Source: Rhodococcus rhodochrous
GTDB taxonomy: Bacteria; Actinomycetota; Actinomycetes; Mycobacteriales; Mycobacteriaceae
Direction: 5' to 3'
NCBI RefSeq assembly: GCF_900187265.1
Contig: NZ_LT906450.1
Span: forward strand, 5,137,444 to 5,201,443
Length of the DNA: 64,000 nucleotides
Below the pieces are notes generated by a model that was given only the letters and a program-made list of their open reading frames with translations, made no database searches and was not told the DNA's origin. The translations under genes were made by a program, and so were the position numbers. Positions 13,101 through 31,371 of this stretch are shown here, in pieces (the first letter of the stretch is position 1; the number at the start of each line of letters is the position of its first letter).

Positions 13101-13209
13101 CTACTACCGACGGGGGATTGCCATGGAGAGGGCAAATGTGATCGACCGGCTCCACGCGAGCGTTCTGGCGACACTGTGCGAAATGGGAGGGACTCTGCGT
13201 GCGGAATGA
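10141..13209 (+). CDS. Nonribosomal peptide synthetase, domains A-PCP-C
   Basis: A 1022-aa synthetase. The adenylation domain is at about 15-500: PTSGSTGAPKA (162-171), VNFDPSLRE (A4, 204-212), YGMTEGT (304-310) and the catalytic Lys491 in RSGKVDR. The carrier domain is at about 515-580, with Ser542 in AGLTSLDM for phosphopantetheine. The condensation domain is at about 600-1015, with an intact HHLFIDG at 739-745. The residues lining the A pocket read D-P-R-F-F-A-L-L-A-K, which I do not recognise as a known specificity. With no condensation domain before A, this looks like a starting module whose C domain hands the residue onward. It overlaps its neighbours by 16 and 11 bases. The partner of the terminal C domain is unclear because the next synthetase begins with its own cyclisation-type domain. 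Confidence 0.9.
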   Translation: MSGLLSEQDGLSRLLTLNLSDRTAIEWRGRQLTYCELAAAVDELSRTLGERGATRSNVLVLGPLCPAYVVGLLATLRSGAVPVPVDAGMSVEQYAWAEGIAQPSTVLTSDVSTVAQYQGTSGADELVLDAVTGRVVLDIASRRRSKIIRRYPVPDVGYLIPTSGSTGAPKAIVGSRTGLHGFLSWFVAEFGLDRGDVCAAVTRVNFDPSLRELLAVLAVGGKLSLPEVDAQLDFQALADHLITSKATIAFLVPSLSRRIADVLSTESARLDHLRLGFFAGEVLPPRVVEQWTALAPDAEFVNLYGMTEGTLAQLFKRDIRGVGDSRLPGMPVGRPRPGVSVTIDQPDSAGRGEVLIASSTPALGTLIDGPGPEPGTFHVEPMAATLRTGDSGFLTEQSELVISGRLGNDLKVSGRRVSFHRFVDEVEEVPGVRQCVVVDWQGPQAFISVAEPADAQQNVLRAAVHGIAQRLGLPRPAVHVRGDLPLLRSGKVDRVTLASSVADTPNFADTTACPDAGVAETMRGFLGLDSDTTSFVDAGLTSLDMIQFILEVNKRFRVNLSVQDCFGHRDVASLARVIERATVPTAPATTPSAARDYIPGESDTYPLSTRQQAYMAICMTDGNANWCNISREIRIERTVIPAEAAAAVDALIARHDALRLSLTADWTRQIHTEASDLSCPITVHDGTGVEGTTDVAHRARVQQARVLAVSELLDPSIAPPFRVVLVQGSGTTSLLVVAHHLFIDGLSLDLIATELRSLLLGQPIGDAPPSHGYRDYCLATERVPEAYTPDALYWRDLLKGAAQVELPETSGEDARVGVLVSRPFGVTGTRAANRLAAASGVSVFSVVLAAFEMAVSRTFGLGPLTVVVPVQVRQGMGAASAGMFTSQLVVRSKGLTSLPDSAREFARQLEAGTTKSSWEFDQRVTELGLVDADCFPLSTVLFNQHPRQRGLRVRELGEWQPRSLGRALRYQLQGELQVSAAEMVLTYYYRRGIAMERANVIDRLHASVLATLCEMGGTLRAE

Positions 13210-14377
13210 AATCATCACGCCCACCGATCGCGAGGCACAGCTCCTCGTGCACCGGGCCGGCCGGACACCGGTATACACCTACAGCCGGGCAGCCCTGCGC
13301 GATGCCGTCGAGCGGGTCCGCGCGGCATCGGTTCTGGGGGCGGACATCTACTACTCGCTCAAGGCTAATCCATATGCCGGGGTCGTGAACGCGCTATCGA
13401 CGCTGGTTGACGGTTTCGACGTCTGTTCACTGGCGGAGATGGAGACTGCACTGAACGCCGGAATGCCGCCGGATAAGGTGCTGTTCACCGGTCCCGCAAA
13501 GTCGCGCGAGGAGGCAGCTGCGGCACTAGCAGCACAGGTCGCGGTGACCGTCGAATCACCAAGGCAGGCCCGCCTGTTCGCCGAGACAGCGGTTGAACTC
13601 GGTGTGAATGGGCGCACCGTCGTCCGACTGAACACGCCCTACCCGGGCCGGACTCCGGCCGCCGCCCCGTACCCGAACCAGTTCGGGGTATCGCAGGATG
13701 ACGTCGCCGAAGTAATGGATATCCTGCGTGCTTCGTCACTGTCGGTTGCCGGTCTGCAGCTTTTCTGGGGCTCGCAGTACTCTGATGCCGACGTCATCCT
13801 GGCCGCGCGGAAAGCTATGACGGAACAAGCTAGAGCGTGCGCAGACCAGTTCGGTCTGGAGCTTGACCTTGTGTCGATCGGTGGCGGCATCGCGATGCCG
13901 TGGTGTGACGCCGACCCTGCTGTCGACTGGGCGGGACTCAAGGCGGCCAACCTCGATCCCGGCCTGCCGAACGGCAACGACCCGCTACCCCTCGTATGTG
14001 AGTACGGTAGATCGATCGTCGGTCCGGCTGGCAGCCTGCTGACAACCGTGCTCGACACCAAGAGCATCGGTGACCGCAGGTACGTCCTGGTCGACGCCGG
14101 GATGAACCACGTACTCATCGCAAGCCGACTGGTGGCCGGAGCTGGCCGGGGCGAGCCCCGGGTCCGGGTTGTGGGTGCACAGGAACGCGCAATTACTAGC
14201 CGTGCCTGTGTCACGGGTCCCCTGTGCTCGCAGCTCGACATGCTCGCTGAAGACATTCAACTGCCCGAAGTGGAAACCGGTGACCTACTCCTGTTCTCGG
14301 GTCTGGGCGCCTATGGGCCGACGTTCAGCCCCAGCGGCTTCCTGAGCCGCGACAAAGTAAGAGAGATCATCTTCTGA
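13199..14377 (+). CDS. PLP-dependent fold-type III decarboxylase (Orn/DAP/Arg decarboxylase 2 family)
   Basis: A 392-aa enzyme with the alanine-racemase-like barrel. PLP is held by Lys55 (YYSLKANPY), the phosphate loop is SIGGG, and the C-terminal dimer site retains a Cys in TGPLCSQLDMLAED. CEYGRSIVGPAG replaces the usual EPGR block. The active-site His of the common HxGSQ motif is absent (LQLFWGSQ), a change also seen in specialised members that act on unusual or carrier-bound substrates, such as BtrK or siderophore decarboxylases. GTG at 13199, after GGGAGGG, overlaps the synthetase end by 11 bases. It may decarboxylate diaminopimelate, ornithine or an acyl-carrier-bound amino acid to give an amine. 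The substrate cannot be read from sequence. Confidence 0.85.
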   Translation: MRNEIITPTDREAQLLVHRAGRTPVYTYSRAALRDAVERVRAASVLGADIYYSLKANPYAGVVNALSTLVDGFDVCSLAEMETALNAGMPPDKVLFTGPAKSREEAAAALAAQVAVTVESPRQARLFAETAVELGVNGRTVVRLNTPYPGRTPAAAPYPNQFGVSQDDVAEVMDILRASSLSVAGLQLFWGSQYSDADVILAARKAMTEQARACADQFGLELDLVSIGGGIAMPWCDADPAVDWAGLKAANLDPGLPNGNDPLPLVCEYGRSIVGPAGSLLTTVLDTKSIGDRRYVLVDAGMNHVLIASRLVAGAGRGEPRVRVVGAQERAITSRACVTGPLCSQLDMLAEDIQLPEVETGDLLLFSGLGAYGPTFSPSGFLSRDKVREIIF

Positions 14378-17300
14378 TGATGCGCGACACTACGACAACG
14401 GCAACCGCGGCCTATCCGTCGCACGAGACGCTGAGCCCGATCCAACGCGCCTACCTGGTCGGAGGCCAGGACGGTCTGGAACTCAGCGGGCCCGCACGGT
14501 ACTACCTTGGCTGCGACCTCAACACGGAACGGGTTGCAGAGATTGGCACCCAACTACGCCGACTGGTTCGGTCCAACGACATCCTCCGCGTCAGCGCCGC
14601 CTCCGACCTGTCCCTGTCGACTCTGCCCGCCGACGTCGCTCGGGACATCGACGTCGACGTCCGCTGGGTCGACGATGCAGACTTCGACGCGGCGAACGAC
14701 GCGGTCCGCCGGGAATACTCGTCCGATACGTTCGCATTCGGCGATTGGCCGCAGTTCGAGATCACCGCGGTGCGCTCACCGCACCGAGCCCGGCTGCACC
14801 TGGTCTACGCCTTGTGGCTGATGGACGCGGCGTCGCTCGCCGTGTTCCTCACCGAGCTGGTCTCGCATCGCGACGACGCCGGGGACGCGGTCGGCCAGGA
14901 TCGCACCGCGGACATTCCGCCCATTCGGTTACGGGCACTAAACCATCCCCGACGCGACCGCTCCGTACGCGATGAACGGTTCTGGCGCGACAGGGCGACG
15001 GCACTTCCCGATCCGGCGGAACTGCCGCTGCGGCCCGAGTGGCGGCACGCCGGCCTAAACGTGACCCACCGTATGGTCACTATCAACTCGGCGACCGCAG
15101 GAAAGATCAACAAGCTGGCGAGCGCCCATGCGATCACCCCCTCGATGGTTTATCTCGCGGCCTATGGTGTCGTCCTCGGGCAGCTCGGTGGAGGACTAGC
15201 CCACACAGTCACAGTGCTGCACTCGCAGCAAACCGGGACCTTGACCCCCAATTCCCTCGGTAACCGCGGCAACACCATGCCACTGGCAATCCCCGCGACG
15301 ACAGGGCAGAGTTTCGTCGAGATCGCCCGAGTCGTGCAGGGCCGCTACCTCAGCCAGGCCATGCACGCCTCGCTCAGCGGTACGGAGATTGCGCGGCTCG
15401 CCAACCCCGCCGCCGACCTGCGTCGGCTCGCCCATCCCTTTGCCTTCACGGCACTGGAGGTCGATGGCCTGGGCGAAGTCGCCCTGGGGCTGCGACGTCG
15501 CTGGGACGAAGTCCAGCTGCGGGTGCCGCAGGTGCTGATGGACCATCAGGTGATCAGGGATTCCGACGGCAGCGTCCGGCTGGGTTTCGACTGGCGGACG
15601 GACGCCTTCGACATCGGTTTCGCAGAGGAATTCGTGGCGCGGTGCGCGAATTTCGTCCGGGAACTCGCCGAGTCCGACGAGCGCTGGACACGCCCGCCGA
15701 GCACGTACCCTCGTGCCCACACCGGTAAAGCCTCGGCGCAACACTCGACCGAGACGCTCCACGACCGTGTATTGCGGTGCGCGGCTGCCGCGCCCAAGGC
15801 ACCCGCAGTACACGATGCGCAGGGGACCCTGAGCTATGCCGAACTGGTGGGACGGGCCCGCGCGGTTGCAAGGCTGCTGCTCGACGCCGGTGCGCGGACC
15901 GGCGACCGGGTCGCCGTCCACCTGCCTCGTGGACGAGGCCAGGTCATCGCCATCCTCGGCAGCCTCCTCGCCGGCTGTGTGTACATCCCGCTTGACTACG
16001 GCACGCCGGAGGGCCGCCTCGACAGCATTGCGCGGCGTGGTGCTGTGCGGTTCGTGTTCACCGACGGGCAGCAGTCCGCCCGTAAACTCTGGACACGCAG
16101 CGGGGTCTACCCGCTGCAGCTGCCCGTCGGCGCGCCCCCACTTTCGGACCGACAGGCAGCTTCCACCCCAAGTCCCCCTAGTCCCACCGCCTACATCATC
16201 TTCACCTCAGGCTCGACCGGTGAACCGAAGGGCGTAGTGATTTCACACGCCGGGGCCATCAACACGATCGACGCAGTGAACGATGAGTTTGGTGTCACAG
16301 AGACGGACCGGGTGCTCTCGGTCTCCTCGATCGGCTTCGACCTTTCCGTGTACGACGTCTTCGGACCGCTTCTTCGCGGCGGATCCGTGGTGATGCTCAC
16401 GGAGGAGAGCGCCAAGAACCCCGCGGAGTGGGTCAAACTCATCGAACGGCACGGGGTGACGCTCTGGAACTCTGCCCCAGCATTGGCTTCCCTGCTGGAA
16501 GAAGAGGGGAGCGCCACACCGTCGGTGCGGGCCTTCTTGCTGAGCGGCGACTGGATTCCGCTGACGCTGCCAGGGGCGCTGCGACGACTGGCGCCTGGTT
16601 CGGAGGTCATCAGCCTGGGCGGCGCGACCGAGGGCTCCATCTGGTCCATCTTCCACCGCGTTAACGAGGCGGACTGCACGGGCCGTTCCATCCCCTACGG
16701 CAAGGCCCTGCCTGGCCAGGACATCCTTGTCCTCGACGCCGAGCGAAACGTGTGTCCGGACTGGCAGATCGGTGAGATCTATATCGCCGGAGCCGGAGTG
16801 GCCGACGGCTACGCAAACGACCAGTCGAAGACCGAGGCAGCGTTCCTCGACGACCCGGCGTTCGGACGGATCTACCGAACCGGTGACCGCGGCCGCCGCC
16901 ATCCCGGTGGAGTCGTCGAGTTCCTGGGACGCACAGACAACCAGATCAAACTGAACGGGCACCGGGTGGAACTGGGAGAGATCGAGCACCTCATCGAGAA
17001 CACTTCTGGCATCCGCCGCTGTGTCGTGTGTGTCCGGGGCAGCGGCCGCCGCAAGCAGGTCGTCGCTTACGTCACGCTCGCCGCGGACGTCTCGGACACC
17101 TGGCGGCAGGACGTGAATGCGGTGCTCAAGAACGCCCTGCCGTCCTACATGATTCCTGATGCGCTGGTCGAGCTGAACGAGATCCCGCTGAACGGCAACG
17201 GCAAGCTGGACCGCCGACGGCTGGAGTCGCTGCCGTTTCAGGAGACTCCGGCGCGCGAGGCATCCCCCGCACGGCAACAGGACCTCCACAGCCACGAGGT

Positions 17301-18240
17301 CGCCCGCTGCTGGCAGGACGTGCTGGGCGAAGCTCCGAGCAAGGGGAGTTTCTTCGAGGCCGGCGGCGGATCGTACGATGCGATCCGGCTACTCTCGCTG
17401 CTACGAAGCAGGTTCGGTTACGAAGTGTCGTTCGGTGACTTCATGGCTGACCCGACGGCCCCGGGCCTGGCCGCGCTCTGCCGCCGGACACGCACATCGG
17501 ACACCCGCGGGGTCTGGACGCACAAGCCGCGCTCCAGCGCCACCCCCCGGCTCCGGCTGGTCCTCTTCCCACCCGTAGGAGGTGGCGTGTCCTGCTACAC
17601 CGACCTGATCCAGGAACTCGGGGGAGACGTTGATGTACACGTCATCGGACTCGACGCGCCACTGGTCGATGGCGACGACGGCCGCGCGAACCTCACCGGA
17701 CTCGCCCGACGCTGTCTCCAGGAACTGCCCGAGCAAACCCTGTTAGACGGTGTGCCGCTCGTCTTCGCCGGGTGGTCGTTCGGCGGATCCTTGGCCTACG
17801 AGGCCGCCCGGGTCTGCGACTCGACCGTGGCACGCGTGGTGGTGGTCGACACCCCTGTCTCCGAGGCGGCCCGCCGCGGTGGCGGCGGTGTCGACGAACT
17901 GTCACTCAACGGGTTCCTCAGGGACATCCATGAGACCAGCGGCGTACGGATCGATGCCGAGCAGGCAGCGACGGACCCGGCGCTCAGCACCAGGTTCGAG
18001 GTTTACCGGCAGAACATGACGTTGCTGCGCGATTGGACTCCGTGCCCCTCGCCAGTGCCGCTTGTGGAGTTCCGAGCCGCCGTGGATCCCGCCGAGCCAG
18101 ACGCTGCCGCTTGGGGCCGGATCGCTCGCCGAGAAGAAGCCTCGGCGCTGGCCGGCGGACACTTCAGCGTGTTTGGCGGCGACAACACCCAGCGGATCAG
18201 AGATGCGATCGAAGGAGTGAAGAGCGATGACTGGCTCTGA
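14377..18240 (+). CDS. Nonribosomal peptide synthetase, domains Cy-A(Cys)-PCP-TE
   Basis: A 1287-aa synthetase. The cyclisation-type condensation domain (about 18-440) is recognised by LSPIQRAYLVGG and FAFTALEVDG. Its DxxxxDxxS motif is altered to ALWLMDAAS (145-153), so the first Asp is Ala. The adenylation domain (about 455-955) has FTSGSTGEPKGV and Lys943. Its pocket residues D655, L656, Y659, N698, L721, S723, L747, I755, W756 and K943 spell DLYNLSLIWK, a well-known cysteine code. The carrier domain has Ser999 in AGGGSYDAI. The thioesterase (about 1058-1280) has Ser1134 in GWSFGGS and His in GGHFSVF. Cy next to a Cys-specific A domain normally yields a thiazoline. The mutated Asp may weaken condensation or cyclisation. 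ATG at 14377 overlaps the decarboxylase stop. Confidence 0.93.
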   Translation: MMRDTTTTATAAYPSHETLSPIQRAYLVGGQDGLELSGPARYYLGCDLNTERVAEIGTQLRRLVRSNDILRVSAASDLSLSTLPADVARDIDVDVRWVDDADFDAANDAVRREYSSDTFAFGDWPQFEITAVRSPHRARLHLVYALWLMDAASLAVFLTELVSHRDDAGDAVGQDRTADIPPIRLRALNHPRRDRSVRDERFWRDRATALPDPAELPLRPEWRHAGLNVTHRMVTINSATAGKINKLASAHAITPSMVYLAAYGVVLGQLGGGLAHTVTVLHSQQTGTLTPNSLGNRGNTMPLAIPATTGQSFVEIARVVQGRYLSQAMHASLSGTEIARLANPAADLRRLAHPFAFTALEVDGLGEVALGLRRRWDEVQLRVPQVLMDHQVIRDSDGSVRLGFDWRTDAFDIGFAEEFVARCANFVRELAESDERWTRPPSTYPRAHTGKASAQHSTETLHDRVLRCAAAAPKAPAVHDAQGTLSYAELVGRARAVARLLLDAGARTGDRVAVHLPRGRGQVIAILGSLLAGCVYIPLDYGTPEGRLDSIARRGAVRFVFTDGQQSARKLWTRSGVYPLQLPVGAPPLSDRQAASTPSPPSPTAYIIFTSGSTGEPKGVVISHAGAINTIDAVNDEFGVTETDRVLSVSSIGFDLSVYDVFGPLLRGGSVVMLTEESAKNPAEWVKLIERHGVTLWNSAPALASLLEEEGSATPSVRAFLLSGDWIPLTLPGALRRLAPGSEVISLGGATEGSIWSIFHRVNEADCTGRSIPYGKALPGQDILVLDAERNVCPDWQIGEIYIAGAGVADGYANDQSKTEAAFLDDPAFGRIYRTGDRGRRHPGGVVEFLGRTDNQIKLNGHRVELGEIEHLIENTSGIRRCVVCVRGSGRRKQVVAYVTLAADVSDTWRQDVNAVLKNALPSYMIPDALVELNEIPLNGNGKLDRRRLESLPFQETPAREASPARQQDLHSHEVARCWQDVLGEAPSKGSFFEAGGGSYDAIRLLSLLRSRFGYEVSFGDFMADPTAPGLAALCRRTRTSDTRGVWTHKPRSSATPRLRLVLFPPVGGGVSCYTDLIQELGGDVDVHVIGLDAPLVDGDDGRANLTGLARRCLQELPEQTLLDGVPLVFAGWSFGGSLAYEAARVCDSTVARVVVVDTPVSEAARRGGGGVDELSLNGFLRDIHETSGVRIDAEQAATDPALSTRFEVYRQNMTLLRDWTPCPSPVPLVEFRAAVDPAEPDAAAWGRIARREEASALAGGHFSVFGGDNTQRIRDAIEGVKSDDWL

Positions 18241-18475
18241 TGTACGCGCCGCGATCTTCGCGGAGTTGGAGTCCCACGGATGCCCGCCACTTGAAGAGGC
18301 CGAGCCCGACCTGGATCTGATCAGCCGCGGCGTCAATTCAGCGACCCTGATTCAGGTCCTGTCCGCACTCGAGGACCGGTTCGACATCGATTTCGAGATG
18401 GAGCCCCTGTTCTCCGGGCCCATGACGGTGACCCGCTTGGAGGCGGAGATCATGCGCATCACCAGGATTCCCTGA
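18227..18475 (+). CDS. Free-standing peptidyl/acyl carrier protein
   Basis: An 82-aa helical carrier protein. The phosphopantetheine Ser is in SRGVNSATLIQVL, followed by ALEDRFDIDFEMEPLF as in PCP/ACP helix II-III. ATG at 18227 overlaps the synthetase end by 14 bases, so it is translationally coupled. It probably accepts the acid activated by the free ligase at 6871, or serves as acceptor for the terminal condensation domain of the A-PCP-C synthetase. Which of these applies cannot be told from sequence. Confidence 0.88.
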   Translation: MTGSDVRAAIFAELESHGCPPLEEAEPDLDLISRGVNSATLIQVLSALEDRFDIDFEMEPLFSGPMTVTRLEAEIMRITRIP

Positions 18476-18584
18476 CAGGCCAGCTGACCAGAGCCATACC
18501 ACGTCTGGACTGGCGTGCGGTCCGAGACCTGTGCCGTCGGCGTACAGCTTGCGTCAGCGCGGCAACCCACAGAAGGAACCACCT

Positions 18585-19409
18585 ATGTCTGAAAACAACG
18601 GATACCAGCAGCTGACCCCGTCCGGTATGGGCGCGGTTCTTACTTGGAACCCGGGAAGCTCCGTCGAGGATCTGGCCAAGCGGGCCAGACGGGCCGCACT
18701 GGAGAGCGGGTGCGCCCTGGTCCGGGGCGTCGAGCTGGACGAGGACGGTTTCAAGCTCCTCGTGCGCTCGCTCGGCGACACGGTCGACCACAAGTTCGGC
18801 GAGGGCCAGGCTGATCTACTCAAACTCAACGCCTCCCGCGACGAGGGGAAGGTGGTGACGGGACGCGGCCCTCTGCCCATCCACACGGACGGACTGTTGG
18901 TGGGCGAGCGTGTCGACCTAATCATTCTGTACGCGGCCGAGTTCTCCGATATTCCGGGCTCCGGTGCGACCTATGTCAGCGATCAACTGACCGCCTGGGA
19001 AGAGATGCCAGTACACCTTCGCCGGGTGCTAGACGAGCACGAGATCGAGTACCTGGTGAAGGAGCGTGGCTACTTTCCCACCGTTCCCGAGGACTGGTAC
19101 ACGATCCCGACAACCCGCGACTATGGCCGCGTGAAGTCTCTGAACCTTGCGACCGCCTTCCCCCTAGACGTCGCCCAGCGCTCCTGGGAGATCCGGGTCA
19201 AGGGCATGGACCAGGAGCGCTCCGACCGGTTCTTCGAAGAACTCGACACCTTCCTGCGCTCGGAACGTTATACCTACATACACTCCTGGCAGGTGGCAGA
19301 CCTGCTGATCATCGACAACCAGCGGACGCTGCACGGCCGTACCGCCATCAGCGAGGGCGGCACCCGTGTCCTGTTCCGGGGACAGTTGACCCTGTCCGGC
19401 GCCCCCTAG
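18585..19409 (+). CDS. Carbapenem synthase-like Fe(II)/2-oxoglutarate oxygenase (CarC homologue)
   Basis: A 274-aa oxygenase, the length of CarC, the enzyme that epimerises C5 and desaturates C2-C3 of carbapenam-3-carboxylate. Similarity is specific: GKVVTGRGPLPIHTDG parallels CarC's GKIVTGRG...FHADG, followed by LYAAEF where CarC has LYAAEI. The iron ligands are H100, D102 and H250 (DNQRTLHGR), nearly the numbering of CarC, and Arg261/Arg265 could bind the 2-oxoglutarate carboxylate. GAAGGA precedes ATG 18585. It is the first of three carbapenem-type genes in the locus (CarC, CarB, CarA order). Epimerase, desaturase or both remain possible. The substrate may not be the simple carbapenam. Confidence 0.85.
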   Translation: MSENNGYQQLTPSGMGAVLTWNPGSSVEDLAKRARRAALESGCALVRGVELDEDGFKLLVRSLGDTVDHKFGEGQADLLKLNASRDEGKVVTGRGPLPIHTDGLLVGERVDLIILYAAEFSDIPGSGATYVSDQLTAWEEMPVHLRRVLDEHEIEYLVKERGYFPTVPEDWYTIPTTRDYGRVKSLNLATAFPLDVAQRSWEIRVKGMDQERSDRFFEELDTFLRSERYTYIHSWQVADLLIIDNQRTLHGRTAISEGGTRVLFRGQLTLSGAP

Positions 19410-19554
19410 TGTCTCGGTACCGAGGGGCCCTCGAATTCCCGATCCGGTTTCCGTCTGTTCCCTCCCTCCGCCCTGCAAGTTGACTCAATCGCAAGACAGT
19501 TCAGATCCCCCGCACGACGCTTGATACCCGTTGTCTTCGTACAGGAGCCCTCAT

Positions 19555-20067
19555 ATGCTCAAGCCCCGACAGCCTGTGCCAACCCTCGATGTCCCTCTGG
19601 TCGGCGGCAGCCGGTGGGCCCTTGCAGACCAACACCCTGAGAACTTCAGCCTGGTGGTCTTCTACCGGGGCGTGCACTGTCCCATGTGCCGCTCTCATGT
19701 GACGGAACTCGACAGCCTCATGGACAAGTTCGCTGAGGTCGGAGTGACCTCAGTGGTGGCGGTGAGCGGGGATGACGAGGGCCGCGCTAAGCGGGCCGTC
19801 GAGGAATGGGATATCACCCGCGTGCCGATCGGCTACGGGCTTAGTATCGAATCGATGCGGGAGTGGGGCCTGCACGTCTCGAAGGCCATCAAGGAGGGCC
19901 AGCCAAACGAGTTCAGTGAGCCGGGCCTATTCATCATCCGACCGGACGGCACCCTGTACGCGGCGGTTCAGACCACGATGCCGTTCCTCCGACCGCACCT
20001 CGACGAGGTCGTTGAGACGATCCGCTGGATTAACGACAACAACTACCCTGCCCGAGGCGAATTGTGA
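19555..20067 (+). CDS. Peroxiredoxin/AhpC-TSA-like redoxin
   Basis: A 170-aa thioredoxin-fold protein. The motif FYRGVHCPMCRSHVTELD places Cys residues at the position used by peroxiredoxin-like proteins, here as a CxxC pair. ATG 19555 follows CAGGAG, and the longer frame is not needed. It lies between the CarC- and CarB-like genes and overlaps the following rhodanese remnant by four bases. It may protect against oxidants or handle a thiol or disulfide step in a sulfur-containing pathway. The family alone does not tell which. Confidence 0.8.
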   Translation: MLKPRQPVPTLDVPLVGGSRWALADQHPENFSLVVFYRGVHCPMCRSHVTELDSLMDKFAEVGVTSVVAVSGDDEGRAKRAVEEWDITRVPIGYGLSIESMREWGLHVSKAIKEGQPNEFSEPGLFIIRPDGTLYAAVQTTMPFLRPHLDEVVETIRWINDNNYPARGEL

Positions 20068-20429
20068 GCCGCAGTGAGCAGGCGCTGGCCGCCGTCGCCC
20101 GCTCCGCAATCACGCCCAGGGAGCTTCGGGAGAAGCTGCTCGCTTGGGACGCTCCCATCGACCTCATTGATATCCATGAACACCACGAACGGGAGATCGT
20201 CAACGTCCCCGGTGCTCGCATGGTGTCCCAGGGCGCGTGACGGCAAGACCGGTGTCCATACGCGCGCGGTCCTGGGCGTGGCACGGCAGGCCCGTTCGCC
20301 GATGCCGTCCATCTTGAGGGCGGCGTCATCGCCTGGATGAGGCAGATCGACCCAGCCCGCTGGAGTACTGAGCCACAGGGGCAGTTACGCCCCCTTGATT
20401 CTCTACGAACAGATCACTTTGTCCGCTAG
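20064..20429 (+). pseudogene. Broken rhodanese-like sulfurtransferase
   Basis: GTG at 20064 overlaps the redoxin stop and opens a rhodanese N-terminal half (LIDIHEHHEREIVNVPGARM). An in-frame TGA at 20238-20240 follows. The same frame then resumes after it with a good C-terminal half (FADAVHLEGGVIAWMRQIDP) and ends at TAG 20427-20429. Between them, the expected catalytic Cys loop is only seen in another frame (KTGVHTRAV) and lacks the Cys. At least one deletion plus frame changes are needed to explain this, so the gene is dead. The C-terminal part resembles single-domain rhodaneses used with sulfur-transfer systems. Confidence 0.7.
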
Positions 20430-20446
20430 TTGCATGAGGAGGAATT

Positions 20447-21226
20447 ATGTCGACGACTGAAGTCGGGACGACGAGCATGAAGTGCGAGATCCTGTCAGGA
20501 GGGGTTGCCCTGGTAGAGTTCTCGCAGGCACACGAGCAAAACCCGTTCAGTCGGGCGCGCATGCGCGAGCTGACCCAGCTGATGCTGGATCTCGACGGTA
20601 ACGACGAAGTGCGGTGTGTCGTCCTGTACGGCGGGGCGGGCCGGTCCTTCGGCGCTGGCGGTGACTTCAACGAGGTCTCGGAGTTCTCCGGCGGCGACGA
20701 GGTCGATGCATGGATCGACGACATCACAGACCTCTACAGCACCATCGCCGGGATATCCAAGCCCGTGGTGGCCGCCATCGACGGCTTCGCGATCGGTGTC
20801 GGTCTGCAGATCGCGCTCTGCTGCGATCTGCGCATTGGGAGCAGCGTATCGAAGCTCGTGATGCCGGAGTTCAAGGTTGGCATCGCCTGCAACTTCGGCG
20901 GCTACATGCTGGAGACGGTGGTCGGCCGCAGTGTGATGCAGGACATGCTCTACACGTGTGCCGAATGGCCCGCTGACCGAGCCCTCGCAGACCGACTTCT
21001 GCACGAAGTGACGGCCCCCGAAGAGCTCTTGGACCGTGCCGTGGAGCACGGCCGACGCATCGCCCGCTACACCGTGGCCGCGGTCCAGTCGACCCGAGCG
21101 CGAGTCAACGGCCCGTATGTCCAAGGCCTTCGACGGGTGCGCGAAGAGGGCAAGCGGTCCCACCGCACCGCCTTCTCCGCAGGCGAAGCGCAGCAGCGTA
21201 TGCGCCGCATCATCGGAAAGGGCTGA
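20447..21226 (+). CDS. Carboxymethylproline synthase-like crotonase (CarB homologue)
   Basis: A 259-aa crotonase. Its closest recognisable relative is CarB/ThnE, which joins malonyl-CoA to pyrroline-5-carboxylate and hydrolyses the thioester to give carboxymethylproline. Shared landmarks are NPFSR near the N-terminus, YGGAGRSFGAGGDFNEV (oxyanion-hole region), AWIDDITDLY, KPVVAAIDGFAIGVG and VMPEFKVGIACN. The last holds Glu141, aligned with the catalytic Glu of CarB. This pattern differs from ordinary enoyl-CoA hydratases. GAGGAGG lies five bases before ATG 20447. It is followed after two bases by the CarA homologue. A variant imine substrate is possible given the cysteine-specific synthetase in the cluster. 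Confidence 0.88.
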   Translation: MSTTEVGTTSMKCEILSGGVALVEFSQAHEQNPFSRARMRELTQLMLDLDGNDEVRCVVLYGGAGRSFGAGGDFNEVSEFSGGDEVDAWIDDITDLYSTIAGISKPVVAAIDGFAIGVGLQIALCCDLRIGSSVSKLVMPEFKVGIACNFGGYMLETVVGRSVMQDMLYTCAEWPADRALADRLLHEVTAPEELLDRAVEHGRRIARYTVAAVQSTRARVNGPYVQGLRRVREEGKRSHRTAFSAGEAQQRMRRIIGKG

Positions 21227-21228
21227 CC

Positions 21229-22689
21229 ATGCCTCCCGTCAGTAGATGGTGCGTCGTCACCAACACGTCCGCCCCGGCCCTGAACCACCTAGCACAGCAC
21301 GCCGACCTCGGCGACCTGCAGGTCTACTATCGGGGCCCCGGAGGGGCGGTTCTCCCCGACAACCCGCCGTTCGTACTCGACGTGGGCACCCTGTCAGTAC
21401 ACTCTGACAGCCAAGCCGCTATGACGTCCTCCGCGATCCGTATCGATCCGGATGCCGTCACGGTGCGCATCTCCGCGCTCAACGAAAACCCGGTCTACTA
21501 CGCAGTCAACCGGATGAAGGGCTTGTTCGCCTACTTCACGGATCTGATACTCGCGCCGCTCGTGCTGCCCGCTCTCGGGATGCCCGTCGAGTTCACCGGC
21601 GGCTCCACTGGGTATGAGCGTGGCACGCTGCTGCGCGAAGTGAACCGGCTGCAGCACAGTATCGTGTCGCGGACCCGGTATACCGGCGGTTACTGGCTCA
21701 TGGATGTCGGCGAGGAGTACGACCTGCTCGGGGACTTCTACAATCCGCACCGGAACGATCCGCTAGCCGCGGGCGAAGCCCAACTCGAGGCCCTGACCGC
21801 GGAAATCAATCGCATCGATGCGACCACTCCCGCGGGTACCAGCTACGCCACCCTACTGTCGGGCGGCATCGATTCGGGGACGGTGACCTATCTCGCGGCC
21901 ACTGCCGGACTGTCTGTCTCTCCATACAGCGTAGGAACTCCCTGGGGTGACGAACTCACCGATGCCGCCGAACTCTGTGCAGAGCTCGGGATCGACCTCG
22001 TGCCTGTCCACCTGACTGAAGATCAGATCATCTCGTCGATTCCGGAAACCATCCGGTGGCTGGGCATCGCTGACCCCGAGGTCGTTGAAGTCGCGCTGAC
22101 TGCCACAGCAGTGCAGCGGCTCGGTGCCATCCCTGCAGACGAGGTCTTGCTGACCGGCTACGGCAGCGATCTGATCAACGCTGGTCTCTATCGCCCCTTC
22201 GACCACCGTGGTGATCTGATCGAACAGGTCTTGTCGTCTGTCGACAGCACACGCCGCAGTAACGAGCTTTCAAACCGGATGCCGCTCGCGTATGGCACCA
22301 CCACCCATCATCCCTTCTGGTCATGGCCCGTGATGTGTGTGGCGTTGGAGACCGCACCCGAGTGCAAAGTCCGAGAGGGCCGGGAAAAGTACCACCTCCG
22401 TACCGCGATGAGCCGTCGCGTTTCCGAACCCATCGCCTGGCGAAAGAAGGTCGCCGTACACCACGGTGGAGGCCTCCAAGGCGGCGTGATGAGCCGACTA
22501 GAGAAGGAAACGGGCACGCCCGACCGACACGCGGTATACCTGGCCTGTTTCGCCGAACTCCTACACCGGGCCGCGGATGGGGAGTTAGAGCCCTCGGACC
22601 CTTGGTCTCTCTTCGAGCGAGCCCTACGCCGCGTGGCGCTTACTGACAGCGCCGCGCGGCTGGCCGCGCCGCGAGCCGCAGCAGGCTGA
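21229..22689 (+). CDS. Beta-lactam/carbapenam synthetase (CarA/BLS homologue)
   Basis: A 486-aa enzyme of the asparagine-synthetase-derived family that uses ATP to close a beta-lactam ring on a beta-amino acid. The C-terminal synthetase domain has the PPi loop LLSGGIDSG (209-217), LLTGYGSDL (307-315, as in CarA), HHPFWSWPVM, and WRKKVAVHHGG with the catalytic Lys. Tyr355 and Glu386 fall at the positions of the Tyr-Glu dyad of CarA. The N-terminal glutaminase-like domain is degenerate, without the Cys nucleophile, as expected for BLS/CarA rather than true asparagine synthetase. ATG 21229 lies two bases after the CarB-like gene, which supplies the presumed substrate. This is the last gene of the cluster before a strong terminator hairpin. 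Confidence 0.9.
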   Translation: MPPVSRWCVVTNTSAPALNHLAQHADLGDLQVYYRGPGGAVLPDNPPFVLDVGTLSVHSDSQAAMTSSAIRIDPDAVTVRISALNENPVYYAVNRMKGLFAYFTDLILAPLVLPALGMPVEFTGGSTGYERGTLLREVNRLQHSIVSRTRYTGGYWLMDVGEEYDLLGDFYNPHRNDPLAAGEAQLEALTAEINRIDATTPAGTSYATLLSGGIDSGTVTYLAATAGLSVSPYSVGTPWGDELTDAAELCAELGIDLVPVHLTEDQIISSIPETIRWLGIADPEVVEVALTATAVQRLGAIPADEVLLTGYGSDLINAGLYRPFDHRGDLIEQVLSSVDSTRRSNELSNRMPLAYGTTTHHPFWSWPVMCVALETAPECKVREGREKYHLRTAMSRRVSEPIAWRKKVAVHHGGGLQGGVMSRLEKETGTPDRHAVYLACFAELLHRAADGELEPSDPWSLFERALRRVALTDSAARLAAPRAAAG

Positions 22690-22781
22690 AAAGGCCTGCT
22701 ACCCGTTACTTTTCAGGGGACGGGACAGTTTTGCCCAGCTTTTTTGCCGTTGTCCGGATGGATCGGCCGGAATCTCGGGTG

Positions 22782-22818
22782 CATCCGCCAGGGGCTACGC
22801 CGTCGCCCCTGGCGGATG
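22782..22818 (+). terminator. Hairpin terminator at the end of the biosynthetic cluster
   Basis: A perfect 13-bp stem (CATCCGCCAGGGG and its complement) encloses an 11-base loop, about 90 bases after the carbapenam-synthetase-like gene. There is no U-tract, which is usual for actinobacteria. A smaller AGCAGG/CCTGCT hairpin overlaps the stop codon itself. Confidence 0.8.
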
Positions 22819-23225
22819 TTAACGGCCAAGTTGATGTGAATCTGGCGCGCTTTCGTTTTGCGCTGTGAGACGCCGTGATTCGAGTGGAGGCGAGAGGCCT
22901 TCACTGTTGGCCTGGTCGTAGCAGGTCGGTGGAGCTGAGGGCAGCCCGGGATCCGGGTGGTGCTGGAGAAGGCGGGAGCAGTCCTGACAACGCAGGGATA
23001 TGGCATGTACTGCCAGATAGTGCGGATGCGGCAAGCGAAGTATGGAGGAGTGCGCGAGGAACCAGCGTCGTTACGTCCCTCAATGCGCCACCTGCTCGAA
23101 CCTGGCGGATCTGGACAGGCCGCGGGGCGTGCTACCGAGATCGGTGGGAACTCCTGGGCGGTTTATTGAAGCCGGCCGGAAGGTCACGAGTAACATCTAC
23201 GATGTTCTCGTGGCACTGCCTCAAG
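22819..23225. other. Intergenic stretch between the cluster and the IS256 element
   Basis: About 400 bp in which no gene is recognised. Its short open frames have no motif and overlap each other in opposite directions. It seems to be leftover sequence between the terminator and the IS256 target site. Confidence 0.45.
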
Positions 23226-23235
23226 ACACAGTTGG
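23226..23235. repeat. Left target duplication of the IS256 element
   Basis: ACACAGTTGG here is repeated exactly at 26021-26030 on the other side of the IS256 unit. Confidence 0.8.
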
Positions 23236-23312
23236 TCAAGTCCCCAGAAGTGGTGTAGCGCTGCGTGACCCCGTCAGGGCCTTACCCCCAGCAAATGGAC
23301 ACGGGTGGTGGA

Positions 23313-24209
23313 TTACACCGCGGATGCCAGCGTAGCGATGTAGAGGGTCTCGTAGGTGTTCGGGGACCGGTGTCCGCACCAGGAATGTCGTCGTCGGGTG
23401 TTGTAGCGGGTGAGCCAACGGAACACCTGACGCCGGCACGTGGCTTCGTCCGACCAGACGTTCGCGTTCTGGAGGACTTCTCGTTTGAGGGCGGCGTTGA
23501 AGGATTCGGCGAGACTGTTGTCGGCGCTCGTGCCGACTTTACCCATCGACTGGGTGACGCCGAGGTCGGCGCAGAGGGAAGCGAAATCCTTCGAGGTGTA
23601 TTGCGCGCCGTGATCGGAGTGAAAGATAGACCCGGACAATCCATTACGATCTCCATGAGCAGCAAGGAGAGCGTCGGCGACGAGGTCGGTGCGCATATGG
23701 TCGGCGATCGCCCAGCCGGCGAGTTTGCGGGAGTAGCAATCGATCACCGTCGCCAGATACAGGTTGGCACCGCCCTCGATCGGTAAATATGTAATGTCGC
23801 CGACGTAGATACAGTTCGGTGCAGGGGCGGTGAAGTCCCGCTCGAGCAGGTCGGGCACCTTCTGGTCCGCAGGTTCTGGGACGGTGGTCGTGACCCGTCG
23901 TCGACGGCGGTAGCCGACAATGCTGTTCTGACGCATCACCCGGGCCACCCGCTTGTGGTTGACCCTCTCGTTCACGGTGACGCCATCGTTGAGTTCTGCG
24001 GTGATCCTGGGTGCTCCGTAGGTGTTGTCCTCGGTATGGATCGCCCGGATTCGTTCGGCCAGCTGCGCGTCGGCCGCGGCGCGAGCGGTCCTGTCCGGCT
24101 CGGCGGACTTCCAGGCGTAGTAGGACGAACGCTCGAGCTCGACGAGCTCGCACAACCGCTTCACCTGATAGGTGTCGGAGTGGTCGGCGACGAACTGGAA
24201 GCGGGTCAC
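23313..24209 (-). CDS. IS3-family transposase OrfB
   Basis: A 298-aa DDE integrase-like protein. The HTH_21-type region contains YGAPRITAEL. The rve core has VGDITYLPIEGG (first Asp), FHSDHGAQYTS (second Asp) and NSLAESFNAALKRE (Glu), then a typical RRRHSWCGHRSPNTYE end. Its ATG overlaps the stop of orfA (ATGA), so production by coupling or by the frameshift usual in this family is possible. The frame is intact. Confidence 0.9.
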   Translation of the reverse strand: MTRFQFVADHSDTYQVKRLCELVELERSSYYAWKSAEPDRTARAAADAQLAERIRAIHTEDNTYGAPRITAELNDGVTVNERVNHKRVARVMRQNSIVGYRRRRRVTTTVPEPADQKVPDLLERDFTAPAPNCIYVGDITYLPIEGGANLYLATVIDCYSRKLAGWAIADHMRTDLVADALLAAHGDRNGLSGSIFHSDHGAQYTSKDFASLCADLGVTQSMGKVGTSADNSLAESFNAALKREVLQNANVWSDEATCRRQVFRWLTRYNTRRRHSWCGHRSPNTYETLYIATLASAV

Positions 24210-24571
24210 CAGTTCGTCTCCCCGGCGAAATACTTGGCCGCCTTACGAAGGATCTCGCGTTCGGTGGTGAGCTTGGTTGCTTCCGCTCGTAGGGCGGCGT
24301 TCTCGGCTTCGAGACGGGCGAGTTTCTGCTCGACGGTCTCCGATTCGCTACCCGTGCCGGGGCTCGGGTTGTGGGGCCGTGCCGGAGTATGCACCCGGGT
24401 GCCGTCGACGTGGGTTTGGGTGCCGGTCCCGTACTGGTCGATCCAGCCTGTCAAGGTGCCGCGCACGACCCCGAGGTCAGCGGCGATACCTCGGATCGTC
24501 GCGCCCGGCGTGGACTCGTACAACTCGACCGCCTGGCGCCGGAACTCCTCCGAGTAGTTCTTTCGTGACAT
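24206..24571 (-). CDS. IS3-family transposase OrfA
   Basis: A 121-aa DNA-binding subunit. It starts MSRKNYSEEFRRQAVELY with a helix-turn-helix (IRGIAADLGVVRGTLTGWI) and ends in a leucine-zipper-like coiled coil (EQKLARLEAENAALRAEATKL), as in other OrfA proteins. It lies directly upstream of orfB on the same strand. Confidence 0.9.
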   Translation of the reverse strand: MSRKNYSEEFRRQAVELYESTPGATIRGIAADLGVVRGTLTGWIDQYGTGTQTHVDGTRVHTPARPHNPSPGTGSESETVEQKLARLEAENAALRAEATKLTTEREILRKAAKYFAGETNW

Positions 24572-24646
24572 GACTGAAGATCATCTCGCTTCCCCAGCAG
24601 ATGCTGGATTCAGCGTGTCCAAGAACCGGGGTCAAGGCCCTCAGTC

Positions 24647-25894
24647 TCAGGCGTTGAGTGCAGGCATGGTGTCCGCTCCCATCTCGCTGTCGGTGTCGGT
24701 GACGGTGTTCAGACGGCATCGAGCCAGCACGTCGAGGCCGAGATAACGTCGGCCTTCGAGCCATTCGTCGGTCTGTTCGGCCAACACCGCACCGACCAGA
24801 CGGACGATCGCGTCCCGATTCGGGAAGATCCCGACCGCGTCGGTGCGGCGCCGGATCTCCTTGTTCAGCCTCTCGGTGGGGTTGTTGGACCAGATCTGAC
24901 TCCACACGTCCTTCGGAAAGGCGGTGAACGCCAGGATGTCTTCTCGGGCCTGCCCGAGATGCTCGGCCACCGCGGGGAGTTTGTCGTCGACGTAGGCGAG
25001 CAGCCGGCCGAACTGGGCATGCACCGAGGCGGCGTCGGGCTGGTCGTAGACCGAATGCAACATCGCCTTCACTGCCGGCCACATGCTCTTCGGACAGATC
25101 GACATGAGATTGGCTGCGTAGTGCGTCCGGCAGCGTTGCCACACCGTGCCGGGCAGATTCGCCGCGATCGCCTCCCGCAGACCGACATGCGCATCGGAGG
25201 TCACCAGCCGGACCCCACCCAGGCCCCGGGCGACCAGGTCGGCGAAGAACTCGTTCCACGCCGGTCCGGTCTCACTGGTGGCCACCCGCATACCGAGCAC
25301 CTCACGGTGACCGTCCCCGTTCACACCGGTGGCCAGCAGCACGACGGCCCCCACGACACGGCCGCCTTCGCGCACCTTCATCGTCAGCGCATCGGCGGCG
25401 ACGAAGGTGAACGGCCCGGCGGTGTCCAGGCGCCGATGCCGAAAATCGTCGACGATCTCGTCGAGCTCGGTGGCCATGCGCGAGACCTGCGATTTCGACA
25501 ACGAGTCGATGCCGAGGGTCTTGACGAGTTTGTCCATCCGGCGGGTCGACACGCCTGCGAGGTAGCAGTCGGCAACCACGGTGATCAGGGCGGATTCGGC
25601 ACGCTTGCGGCGTTCGAGCAGCCATTCGGGAAAGTAGGTGCCCGTGCGCAGTTTGGGGATCGCGACGTCGACGGTGCCGACGCGGGTATCGAGGCTGCGG
25701 TGGCGGTAGCCGTTACGCCGGGTGGTGCGCTCCGATGAGCGCTGTCCCCATTCGGCGCCGACGACCGCGTCGGCATCGGCCGAGAGCAGGGCGTTGATGA
25801 TGGTCTGCAGCAACGTGCGCATCAGATCCGGGGAGGCTTCGGCCAAGGCCTCGCCAAGCAGGCCGGCAGGGTCGACAATGTACGGTGCGGTCAT
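24647..25894 (-). CDS. IS256-family (mutator-type) transposase
   Basis: A 415-aa transposase. Recognisable blocks are RNGYRHRSLDTRVGTVDVAIPKLR, YLAGVSTRRMDKLVKTLG, FVAADALTMKV (first Asp region), LVTSDAHVGLREA (second Asp), CRTHYAANLM and IWSNNPTERLNKEIRRRT (Glu region). The stop codon lies only four bases from the IS3 insertion, yet the product appears full length and so could be active. Confidence 0.9.
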   Translation of the reverse strand: MTAPYIVDPAGLLGEALAEASPDLMRTLLQTIINALLSADADAVVGAEWGQRSSERTTRRNGYRHRSLDTRVGTVDVAIPKLRTGTYFPEWLLERRKRAESALITVVADCYLAGVSTRRMDKLVKTLGIDSLSKSQVSRMATELDEIVDDFRHRRLDTAGPFTFVAADALTMKVREGGRVVGAVVLLATGVNGDGHREVLGMRVATSETGPAWNEFFADLVARGLGGVRLVTSDAHVGLREAIAANLPGTVWQRCRTHYAANLMSICPKSMWPAVKAMLHSVYDQPDAASVHAQFGRLLAYVDDKLPAVAEHLGQAREDILAFTAFPKDVWSQIWSNNPTERLNKEIRRRTDAVGIFPNRDAIVRLVGAVLAEQTDEWLEGRRYLGLDVLARCRLNTVTDTDSEMGADTMPALNA

Positions 25895-27626: not shown

Positions 27627-28217
27627 ATGAGCCTCGAAAGCAACTGGCAACGCCTGTATGACTGGTGCGTGAAGGAGGCGCCCGTGACAGCTTCTGCCAT
27701 CTCCCCTCCGGCAGAGGTATCCGTGCTCGTCACAGCAGAAACGGCGACCGGACGCCAGTGGCCGACAGAGCTCCGCACATGGTTCGGTCTCCACAACGGC
27801 ACCAATGAGGGAAAACCCTTTGCACAGATCCTGCCCTCGTTCGAGCCGCTTTCCCTGGATCGGGTGTCATCTGCATGGACATCGATGACGACCACCTGGG
27901 CGGACATGACCCAAGACCTCGGCGGAAGTGCGCTCCTCGACGAACCGGCAGGCACGATCTCGTTCACCTACTTGCCTGCCTATATCCCGATCGCTCAGAA
28001 CGATCAAGGGGACCTCCTCGTCGTCGACACGCGTGCCGGGGAAGAGAGCGGGTGTGTACGGGACTTCGCCGGCGAAGATGCCGATCAGAGCATGATGATG
28101 TGGTCCTCGATCGATGCGCTTATCGACGAGGTGGCCTCCGCGGTACAACACAGTGAACCGTGCTTCGGGTGGATGCCGGTGGTCAACGACGGGACGCTGG
28201 ACTGGGAATTGTCGTGA
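27627..28217 (+). CDS. SMI1/KNR4-family protein
   Basis: A 196-aa protein with the SMI1/KNR4 pattern: an acidic N-terminal helix region, LPTELRTWFGLHNGTNEG-like segment (here WPTELRTWFGLHNGTNEG), YIPIAQNDQGDLLVVD and a C-terminal helix before LIDEVASAVQ. Members are often immunity proteins for contact-dependent or polymorphic toxins, but many have other or unknown roles. No toxin gene accompanies it. It lies alone between IS elements inside the island and may be passenger DNA. Confidence 0.75.
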   Translation: MSLESNWQRLYDWCVKEAPVTASAISPPAEVSVLVTAETATGRQWPTELRTWFGLHNGTNEGKPFAQILPSFEPLSLDRVSSAWTSMTTTWADMTQDLGGSALLDEPAGTISFTYLPAYIPIAQNDQGDLLVVDTRAGEESGCVRDFAGEDADQSMMMWSSIDALIDEVASAVQHSEPCFGWMPVVNDGTLDWELS

Positions 28218-28770: not shown

Positions 28771-28936
28771 TGTCGTCTGCCATGAGCATGGGACCGGTGT
28801 GAGCTGATTTTGCCAGGGTGATGGGACCACCTGGATTGCCAGTTATGGGACCACCGGCGCGCCTTGCCGGTGATCTCGTCGTTTGCTCGTTCGATCGTCT
28901 GTGACAGCTCAAGCGAGGTCGCGGAGGTCGACGGGC

Positions 28937-30571: not shown

Positions 30572-31371
30572 GCACCCACACCCGCACCGCAGCCACCGAA
30601 CCTGTCGGTACCGACATGGTCCGACTGCTCAAAGCTCTCAAACTCGGGGCGCTGGCCGACACGCTGCCCGAACGCGCCGCCCTGGCCCGTCAACACAAAC
30701 TCAGCCACATCGGGTTCCTCGAAGTGCTCCTCGCCGACGAAGTGAACCGGCGTGAATCACGTTCGGCGACACTACGAGCCACCAAGGCAGGACTCGACCC
30801 GGCGATGGTGTTCGATACCTGGAATGCGCTCGATGATCTGCGCTACGACCGGACACTCCTCGCAGATCTGACCTCATTGCGGTTCCTCGACAACCAGCAG
30901 TGCGCGATCGTTCTCGGCCCGGTCGGGGTCGGCAAGACCCATCTGGCAACAGCATTAGGGCACATGGCAATCCGGCGGCGACACAGTGCTCTGTTCGCGC
31001 GATCGGACAAGCTGTTCACCCGGCTCCGCGCAGCCCGATTGGATAACACCGTCGACGCCGAGATCCGCAGGTTGACCGCGATCGACGTGCTCATCATCGA
31101 CGACTTCGCGCTGCGACCGCTCGATGCCACCGAAACCAACGACTTCTACGAACTCATCGTAGAACGGCACAAGAAGAAGACCACGATCGTCACATCAAAT
31201 CGGGAGCCGTCGGAGTGGCTGACGATGACCGCAGACACCCTCCTCGCCCAATCCGCGATCGACCGGCTGACCTCCAGCGCCCACACCCTCGTCGTCGAAG
31301 GACCGTCCTACCGTCAACGCACCCGGCCCGGAGCAGTTGACGCCGCCACCGACAACACGCATCCTCAATAA
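30568..31371 (+). CDS. istB: IS21 helper ATPase IstB
   Basis: A 267-aa AAA+ ATPase that assists IstA in target choice and strand transfer. P-loop GPVGVGKTHLA, Walker B VLIIDDFALRPL and sensor ATSNREPSEW are visible (the last as TIVTSNREPSEW). It overlaps istA by four bases, the invariant arrangement in this family. Confidence 0.92.
   Translation: MSTHTRTAATEPVGTDMVRLLKALKLGALADTLPERAALARQHKLSHIGFLEVLLADEVNRRESRSATLRATKAGLDPAMVFDTWNALDDLRYDRTLLADLTSLRFLDNQQCAIVLGPVGVGKTHLATALGHMAIRRRHSALFARSDKLFTRLRAARLDNTVDAEIRRLTAIDVLIIDDFALRPLDATETNDFYELIVERHKKKTTIVTSNREPSEWLTMTADTLLAQSAIDRLTSSAHTLVVEGPSYRQRTRPGAVDAATDNTHPQ

Follow-up and report, generated by a model that had tools for sequence, protein, structure and literature searches.

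An NRPS-linked, carbapenem-type gene cluster on an inserted element in the genome of Rhodococcus rhodochrous

Genes resembling carC, carB and carA of carbapenem biosynthesis lie downstream of two nonribosomal peptide synthetases (NRPSs) in a 64,000-nucleotide stretch of the Rhodococcus rhodochrous genome (bases 5,137,444-5,201,443 of the complete 5.27-Mb sequence, NZ_LT906450.1; hereafter the window). This arrangement raises the question of whether the two sets of genes serve one pathway, as clavams and carbapenems are described in a 2025 paper as products of pathways without NRPSs (PMC12482188). An earlier analysis from the letters alone (the sequence-only reading) had placed a complete carbapenem core at 18585-22689, behind the two NRPSs. 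We found the three frames present and intact at that place, but as part of a wider cluster of 12 genes at 5216-22689, which includes an ArgJ and a stand-alone acyl carrier protein (ACP) that had not been listed. We infer that the cluster is an intact, horizontally acquired, NRPS-coupled carbapenem-type pathway with a β-lactam product, and we put the probability that it encodes one pathway to a carbapenem-type bicycle joined to a cysteine peptide at roughly 0.65. The 12 genes, all with open frames, and a repeat that follows them are listed below (A, adenylation; PCP, peptidyl carrier protein; C, condensation; Cy, heterocyclization; TE, thioesterase).

5216-6370, + strand: ArgJ-like acyltransferase, cluster type (Pfam ArgJ, 2e-124)
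6856-8370, + strand: LIG, class I adenylate-forming ligase (Pfam AMP-binding, 2e-56)
8367-9512, + strand: ACAD, acyl-CoA-dehydrogenase-like, weakly like RedW/PigA (Pfam Acyl-CoA_dh_M below cut-off; NCBIfam RedW model 2.8e-12, below its cut-off)
9515-10156, + strand: FMN-binding protein (FMN_bind_2; Pfam, 3.7e-32)
10141-13209, + strand: NRPS1, A-PCP-C, code DPRFFALLAK
13199-14377, + strand: DEC, pyridoxal-phosphate fold-III decarboxylase, like diaminopimelate (DAP) decarboxylase and BtrK
14377-18240, + strand: NRPS2, Cy-like domain, A (DLYNLSLIWK, a Cys code), PCP, TE
18227-18475, + strand: stand-alone acyl/peptidyl carrier protein (Pfam PP-binding, 1.4e-5; matched in 6/6 Streptomyces clusters)
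18585-19409, + strand: CarC-like Fe/2-oxoglutarate (2OG) oxygenase, Phe at CarC position 165, inside a frame opening at 18531
19531-20067, + strand: PRX, AhpC/TSA-type peroxiredoxin (Pfam, 3.2e-13)
20447-21226, + strand: CarB, putative ThnE-type carboxymethylproline synthase (PDB scores, tree, residues)
21229-22689, + strand: CarA-like putative β-lactam synthetase, Tyr-Glu-Lys kept (PDB scores, tree, residues)
22782-22818, no strand: near-perfect inverted repeat with 18-nt arms after carA, a possible terminator

With the starts chosen here (that of ACAD, 8367, was our choice and was used also in the comparison with Streptomyces clusters), every gene from LIG through the ACP overlaps the next or starts within 2 bp of it, and a gap of 2 bp separates carB from carA. 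The car-type genes had been described as three adjacent genes; they form one set on one strand, but carC is separated from carB by the peroxiredoxin gene. The inverted repeat has no T-run and was not reported by our promoter/terminator scan, the yield of which was no greater than in shuffled sequences.

The three enzymes could in principle be an ordinary crotonase, an asparagine synthetase and a taurine-dioxygenase-type oxygenase, and the general Pfam and NCBIfam models, which returned only ECH, Asn_synthase, TauD or weak matches, would fit that view. The more specific evidence argued otherwise. All motifs pointed out by the sequence-only reading are present (NPFSR, GAGGDFNEV and VMPEFKVGI in CarB; LLTGYGSDL, HHPFWSW and WRKKVAVHHGG in CarA; GKVVTGRG...HTDG in CarC), and the best structure-database matches of all three proteins are carbapenem enzymes. 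For CarB these were the CarB homologue 5o34 (E 2.8e-120), which we take to be ThnE from its +45 numbering, and CarB 2a7k (5.1e-56), while the best other crotonase scored 6.9e-27. The protein is also 72% identical to a ThnE-like protein of Streptomyces cattleya, where the names ThnE and ThnM are our own assignment on a record without annotation. In the CarB tree (57 rows; all trees were quick ones with SH-aLRT support only, given in brackets, and those of CarB and CarC were flagged for long branches), the window falls in an 8-row clade (98) made up of its own cluster type and S. flavidovirens. The next clade, of 14 rows (SH-aLRT 99), takes in the S. cattleya protein and Catellatospora and is nested in a 51-row clade (100) separate from six crotonases. 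Gly62, Trp79, Gln111, Glu131 and His229 are retained, and position 108 is Val, as in the S. cattleya protein. By its tree position and residues, CarB is thus predicted to be a carboxymethylproline synthase of the CarB/ThnE kind. In 397 genomes of the order, a CarB query matched the host and, apart from it, a single homologue at 57% (E 1e-40; at most six candidates scored per genome).

The CarA-like protein matched CarA 1q15 (1.2e-20) and β-lactam synthetase (BLS) 1jgt (1.4e-19) far better than asparagine synthetase B (6.8e-5). In its tree (48 rows), the window lies in nested clades of 7 (98), 8 (98), 12 (99) and 23 (99) rows, the wider of which take in Catellatospora, Micromonospora, the att locus of R. 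fascians, Acinetobacter, Anaerobacterium and the clusters of Nocardia and Streptomyces that we label type D (L003, L053, L055, L056, L058 and L059). ThnM-like (3 rows, 100) and BLS (5 rows, 100, one CoH27 gene being present twice) clades stand apart from it, and the tree does not resolve how the three join. A Tyr-Glu dyad plays a role in carbapenam synthetase. The Tyr (TGYGSD), the Glu (SNE or TGE) and a Lys are kept in 7/7 rows of the window cluster type, with Glu and Lys read from context strings, since the reference columns are offset there. The residues thus point to a carbapenam synthetase, in a clade separate from both CarA and the ThnM-like proteins. A single-sequence CarA scan of genome contigs found no relative. 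A further CarA-like gene, 64% identical to that of the window and with Leu for the catalytic Tyr, occurs about 10 kb from the first in S. pseudovenezuelae (L093, 6994-8412).

The CarC-like protein found CarC 1nx4 as its best PDB match (1.3e-49), followed by another TauD-type protein at only 4.2e-6. Its tree (39 rows, including a weak row from L091, probably part of a clavaminate synthase) placed the window in a 6-row clade (97) within a 12-row clade (95) that also holds HPF1205, Micromonospora, S. flavidovirens, R. fascians and Acinetobacter, and gave nine proteobacterial CarC rows a clade of their own (99). The iron ligands are kept as had been claimed (His101, Asp103 and His251, numbered after PMC6097109), together with the 2OG Arg, Arg263, and Thr130. 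On the other hand, the phrase "complete carbapenem core" is too strong for CarC, in which the epimerization tyrosine is replaced: positions 67/165/191 are His, Phe, and Ala or Thr in 7/7 rows of the window cluster type, whereas all nine proteobacterial rows have Tyr at the three sites. His67 and Phe165 are common also to two Micromonospora rows, R. fascians and Acinetobacter. Besides Tyr165, Tyr67 and Tyr191 were candidates for the hydrogen donor in CarC. A review names Tyr165 as the likely donor in C5 inversion and reports that the Y165F enzyme catalyzes substrate oxidation (PMC6097109), so the window enzyme is predicted to oxidize or desaturate without C5 inversion. With CarC as the query, the host alone was matched, both in a set of 101 relatives (E 1e-15) and in 394 genomes of its class (E 1e-25; at most six candidates scored per genome). 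Taking PDB scores, trees and residues together, we rejected the ordinary-enzyme identities, which seem hardly credible for these three proteins.

The window by itself could not tell whether the NRPS genes and the carABC-like set work together or are neighbors by chance. A scan of genome contigs with a CarB alignment gave at least 80 loci, so that the counts below are lower bounds. As the sequence-only reading had suggested might be looked for, matching clusters exist in other actinobacteria: all 12 genes are present in 6/6 extended Streptomyces clusters (S. pseudovenezuelae, CoH27, S. diastatochromogenes, CC208A, SA15 and HPF1205), with identities to the window of 75-88% for ArgJ, 83-89% for CarB, 75-84% for CarC, 69-84% for the peroxiredoxin, 63-77% for CarA and 67-76% for DEC. 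Gene order and strand differ among the six: CarB is about 22 kb from CarA in CC208A, CarB-CarA diverges from the remaining genes in HPF1205, ArgJ is found some 14 kb upstream of LIG in S. pseudovenezuelae, and NRPS2 is in two pieces in SA15. The persistence of the same 12 genes despite this reshuffling argues for a joint function, and their linkage has probably been selected. The ligase and both NRPSs (47-59%) also stand beside CarA/CarB in six further, more distant Nocardia/Streptomyces clusters. A chance neighborhood was rejected on these two sets of six and appears very improbable. S. flavidovirens has a reduced set, with no NRPS match in the 39.9 kb examined.

Homologues of ArgG and ArgH accompany 5/6 of the Streptomyces clusters, a formyltransferase homologue three and a permease-like gene some (the families of these accessory genes were named for CoH27 only). 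ArgG and ArgH were dropped as core genes because they have no match in the window and no partner was seen in SA15. Four Streptomyces loci (L024, L040, L025 and L037) encode a second CarB-like protein, lacking the catalytic Glu131, in the vicinity of ArgG, ArgH and formyltransferase homologues; in CoH27 and S. diastatochromogenes, this protein shares the region with the window-type cluster. In S. pseudovenezuelae and CoH27 (L091 and L096), clavam-type genes adjoin the cluster, namely, an acetolactate-synthase-like enzyme, presumably CeaS-like, a BLS-clade synthetase and an agmatinase-like protein; in CoH27, a single frame of 671 residues joins the agmatinase-like part to a clavaminate synthase (NF043003, 1.1e-155).

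What would feed CarB is suggested by the cluster ArgJ. As had been claimed, CarD has no match in the window; ArgJ is present instead. A second, housekeeping ArgJ is encoded elsewhere in the host genome; it shares 31% identity with the cluster ArgJ. The latter is 47-88% identical to the copies of the other such clusters compared, except that of Anaerobacterium (34%), and 45% identical to a protein encoded close to the β-lactam synthetase of S. clavuligerus. Among 53 CarB loci, ArgJ occurs in 20, CarD in nine, both in none and neither in 24; the stretches compared were of restricted length and some genomes are related, so that absence is weak evidence. Excluded from this list were L024 and L040, whose regions are already represented by two joined clusters; L033-L035, copies of the R. 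fascians type; L050; L060-L088, regarded as ordinary crotonases; and fragments of the host genome. One genome contributes two of the listed loci, L016 and L018. The nine CarD-bearing loci all belong to Enterobacterales or Vibrio. This pattern suggests that ArgJ supplies the substrate of CarB, standing in for CarD. Three loci of Paraburkholderia acidicola and Caballeronia (L036, L043 and L044) have CarABC and ArgJ, with no CarD match in the stretch examined.

The peptide part can be read from the NRPSs, both of which lie upstream of the car-type genes as the sequence-only reading had them. NRPS1 (A-PCP-C) has an HHxxxDG motif, and NRPS2 opens with a Cy-family domain (EpoB, 7.9e-19). The A-domain codes, the columns of which we placed against known motifs, are DPRFFALLAK for NRPS1 and DLYNLSLIWK, DLYNMSLIWK or DLWNLSLIWK for NRPS2 in 12/12 rows each (the window, five others of its type and six of type D, CC208A being absent from the table). 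All three NRPS2 codes are listed for Cys (PMC12283262), and its A domain reads as Cys-specific. DPRHLALLAK, which matches the NRPS1 code at 8/10 positions, is given for α-aminoadipate in PMC12283262 and predicted for it in Table 2 of PMC3547906, and NRPS1 is probably specific for an amino diacid. DEC matches BtrK (7ru7, 8.2e-35), which the PDB lists as L-glutamyl-[BtrI ACP] decarboxylase, and the first module of the aminoadipyl-cysteinyl-valine (ACV) synthetase activates the side chain of aminoadipate (PMC7147772). By analogy, loading on NRPS1 through the side chain followed by decarboxylation on the carrier is an attractive conjecture.

At the level of sequence, there is support for the family assignments, the retention of catalytic residues, the A-domain codes, the linkage of the genes and an insertion (see below), and the following course may be proposed. 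We conjecture that the cluster ArgJ would free L-glutamate semialdehyde/pyrroline-5-carboxylate (P5C) from its N-acetyl form, in place of CarD. From what is known of the families, CarB would couple P5C with malonyl-CoA to carboxymethylproline, CarA would close the β-lactam to give carbapenam-3-carboxylate, and the Phe165 CarC would oxidize or desaturate the carbapenam without Tyr-dependent C5 inversion. NRPS1 might take up an amino-dicarboxylic acid through the carboxyl of its side chain, this diacid might be trimmed on the carrier by the BtrK-like decarboxylase, and NRPS2 would add cysteine. Finally, the ligase and the stand-alone ACP may activate the bicycle carboxylate for coupling to the peptide, with redox work possibly done by ACAD, the FMN protein and the peroxiredoxin. 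More tentatively still, and with some doubt on our side, the clusters may form a transposable family making a carbapenem that, through the natural Phe165 CarC, retains its 5S center and bears a carboxylate-linked ω-aminoacyl-cysteine, which perhaps acts on a target other than penicillin-binding proteins and whose core is fed by an ArgJ paralogue rather than a proline oxidase.

Several observations weigh against a carbapenem-type product of this kind. Placement in a tree is no proof of substrate. The outgroup of the CarA tree was a single AsnB row, so that, beyond the 23-row clade, the tree tests asparagine synthetase weakly, and residues and PDB scores carry that point; the CarC tree gives the window its 12-row clade, and the PDB score favors CarC, but the fork joining that clade, the proteobacterial CarC clade and other oxygenases is not resolved. 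Phe165 is not a clade-wide trait, since S. flavidovirens, in the same CarC clade, has Tyr, Tyr and Ser at 67/165/191. The assignment of the DPR-type code is uncertain: the close code DPRHVSLLAK is listed for Asn (PMC12283262), and at least one of the aminoadipate calls is itself a prediction. DEC is slightly more similar to DAP decarboxylase 3c5q (7.9e-40) than to BtrK. Cyclization by NRPS2 is doubtful because its heterocyclization motif is altered, the first Asp being Ala in 10/11 rows including the window and Ser in S. pseudovenezuelae (the SA15 row covers only the second part), and the last Ser being Gly in two Nocardia rows. No transporter, regulator or self-resistance gene was recognized among the 12 proteins, and nothing in the window matches, at 1e-10, the ArgG/ArgH, formyltransferase and permease-like genes found with the Streptomyces clusters, so that the cluster may be silent or incomplete in this host.

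A product that is not a β-lactam also has to be considered, in which the CarB, CarA and CarC homologues would make a modified proline or another bicycle for ligation to the peptide. The catalytic Tyr of CarA is replaced by Leu in the R. fascians att locus, by Met in Acinetobacter and by Val in 5/6 type D clusters, and in the first two, where no Glu aligns either (the alignment is loose), the CarB-CarA-CarC-ligase-ArgJ set is kept and CarC has the same H67/F165/A191 pattern as in the window. However, the window and 6/6 Streptomyces clusters of its type keep Tyr, Glu and Lys in CarA, and we regard such a product as unlikely for them. The same CarA replacement suggests that the att compound itself may not be a β-lactam.

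Whether the cluster is native to the host can be judged from its surroundings, where we found the following elements (IS, insertion sequence; HTH, helix-turn-helix).

2646-31824, no strand: inserted island of 29,179 bp carrying the whole cluster, with an empty site in four same-genus genomes
2642-3026, - strand: left terminal repeat with CTAG target duplication, in which a transposase tail was recognized by eye; its 385 nt are 100% complementary to 31444-31828
3490-4662, + strand: IS transposase (HTH and DDE_3; Pfam)
23313-24571, - strand: IS3-type transposase pair (family by eye)
24647-25894, - strand: Mutator (IS256-type) transposase (Pfam, 8.7e-132)
28883-31371, + strand: IS21-type istA/istB pair (Pfam)
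31444-31828, + strand: right terminal repeat, likewise with a CTAG target duplication; sole perfect counterpart of the left repeat in the genome

We looked for the glutaminase and ABC-transporter genes of the flanks in the host and 17 relatives. In four genomes of the same genus (G002, G004, G006 and G008), some 3.2-3.3 kb separates them; in the other relatives, at least one of the two was missed at the cut-off, or they are on separate contigs or distant from each other. All four empty sites aligned, with the flanks meeting exactly at 2645/31825 in two and within about 35 bp in two, and the 4-bp direct repeat CTAG bounds the insert at both ends. The terminal repeats, with a transposase tail that we take to be IS5-like, have no further perfect copy in the genome (the third match is 66%), and the GC content is 64.5% in the insert versus 67.5-69.0% in the flanks. 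The inverted repeats, target duplication, empty sites and GC content together argue for acquisition of the cluster in a past insertion, as a unit resembling a composite transposon, the repeats now appearing, by eye, as IS fragments. The IS3-type element (23277-24640) has a second 100% copy at genome position 3,494,002-3,495,365, and an orphan SUKH-1 (SMI1/KNR4) immunity-like gene lies on the island at 27627-28217. Beyond the island, at 61599-63857, the window encodes a 752-residue protein, by eye a penicillin-binding protein; among eight genomes queried, its identity was 74% in R. fascians, 63% in two Nocardia and 61% in a Mycolicibacterium, in keeping with a host that is probably a Rhodococcus-like member of the Nocardiaceae.

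This history makes it possible, though doubtful in our view, that the cluster is a decayed or silent passenger which makes nothing in its host, a state compatible with the pathway proposed above. The precise 29-kb insertion, the several internal IS elements and the unmatched accessory genes fit it, as does the promoter scan, which found no sigma-70-like promoter in 4600-23400 against 2.6 expected in shuffles. However, in an actinobacterium such a scan carries little weight, the 12 frames are all open, and the catalytic motifs are kept wherever they were inspected.

If the NRPS-coupled carbapenem-type pathway is real, a conserved carABC-NRPS cluster would break the rule that carbapenems are made without NRPSs and would point to a new β-lactam scaffold in a clinically vital class. 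It would also make testable the replacement of CarD by ArgJ outside enterobacteria and the role of a natural Phe165 CarC. No report of an NRPS-linked carABC cluster was among the literature matches listed, most subscription papers being outside their scope.

Compared with known systems, the combination of a carbapenem core with a cysteine peptide is absent from known carbapenem pathways. The window shares CarA, CarB and CarC homologues with the enterobacterial carABC genes of Pectobacterium, Pantoea and their kin (CarC 35-37% and CarB 33-41% over nine loci), but it adds the two NRPSs, the ligase, DEC, the ACP and the redox genes, has ArgJ and no CarD match, and lacks the Tyr67/165/191 set of CarC. 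With the thn cluster of S. cattleya it shares the ThnE-like clade of CarB; unlike that cluster, it has a CarC-type oxygenase and NRPSs, and its CarA is outside the ThnM-like clade. A thienamycin-type cluster was rejected on this CarA clade and on the lack of any radical-SAM Pfam family among the 12 proteins. The type D clusters resemble the window in having the ligase, NRPS1 and NRPS2 with the same codes, CarB and CarA, but their CarB (34-36%) and CarA (33-40%) are distant, their oxygenase is of another clade, and neither ArgJ nor DEC was matched in the stretches examined.

ACV synthetase, of the penicillin and cephamycin pathways, likewise combines a first A domain of the DPR-code type with a Cys module. 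In contrast, the window has two proteins (A-PCP-C and Cy-A-PCP-TE) and no valine or epimerization module, and its β-lactam would come from CarA rather than from isopenicillin N synthase. The Acinetobacter indicus plasmid pB18-1 (L005), matched by a second record, NZ_CP039144.1, carries the CarB-CarA-CarC-ligase set and ArgJ with the Met-substituted CarA. The att locus of R. fascians (L004, 14920-20293) is like the window in bringing together CarB, CarA, CarC, ligase and ArgJ homologues; unlike it, the att stretch has no annotated NRPS, and its CarA-like protein lacks the β-lactam synthetase Tyr. Its ArgG (66%) and ArgH (53%) are akin to those of the CoH27 cluster, while its annotated formyltransferase did not match that of CoH27 at 1e-10. 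The att product is described just as an autoregulatory compound in the text of PMC12130866, and the genes shared with the window may bear on the nature of this autoregulator.

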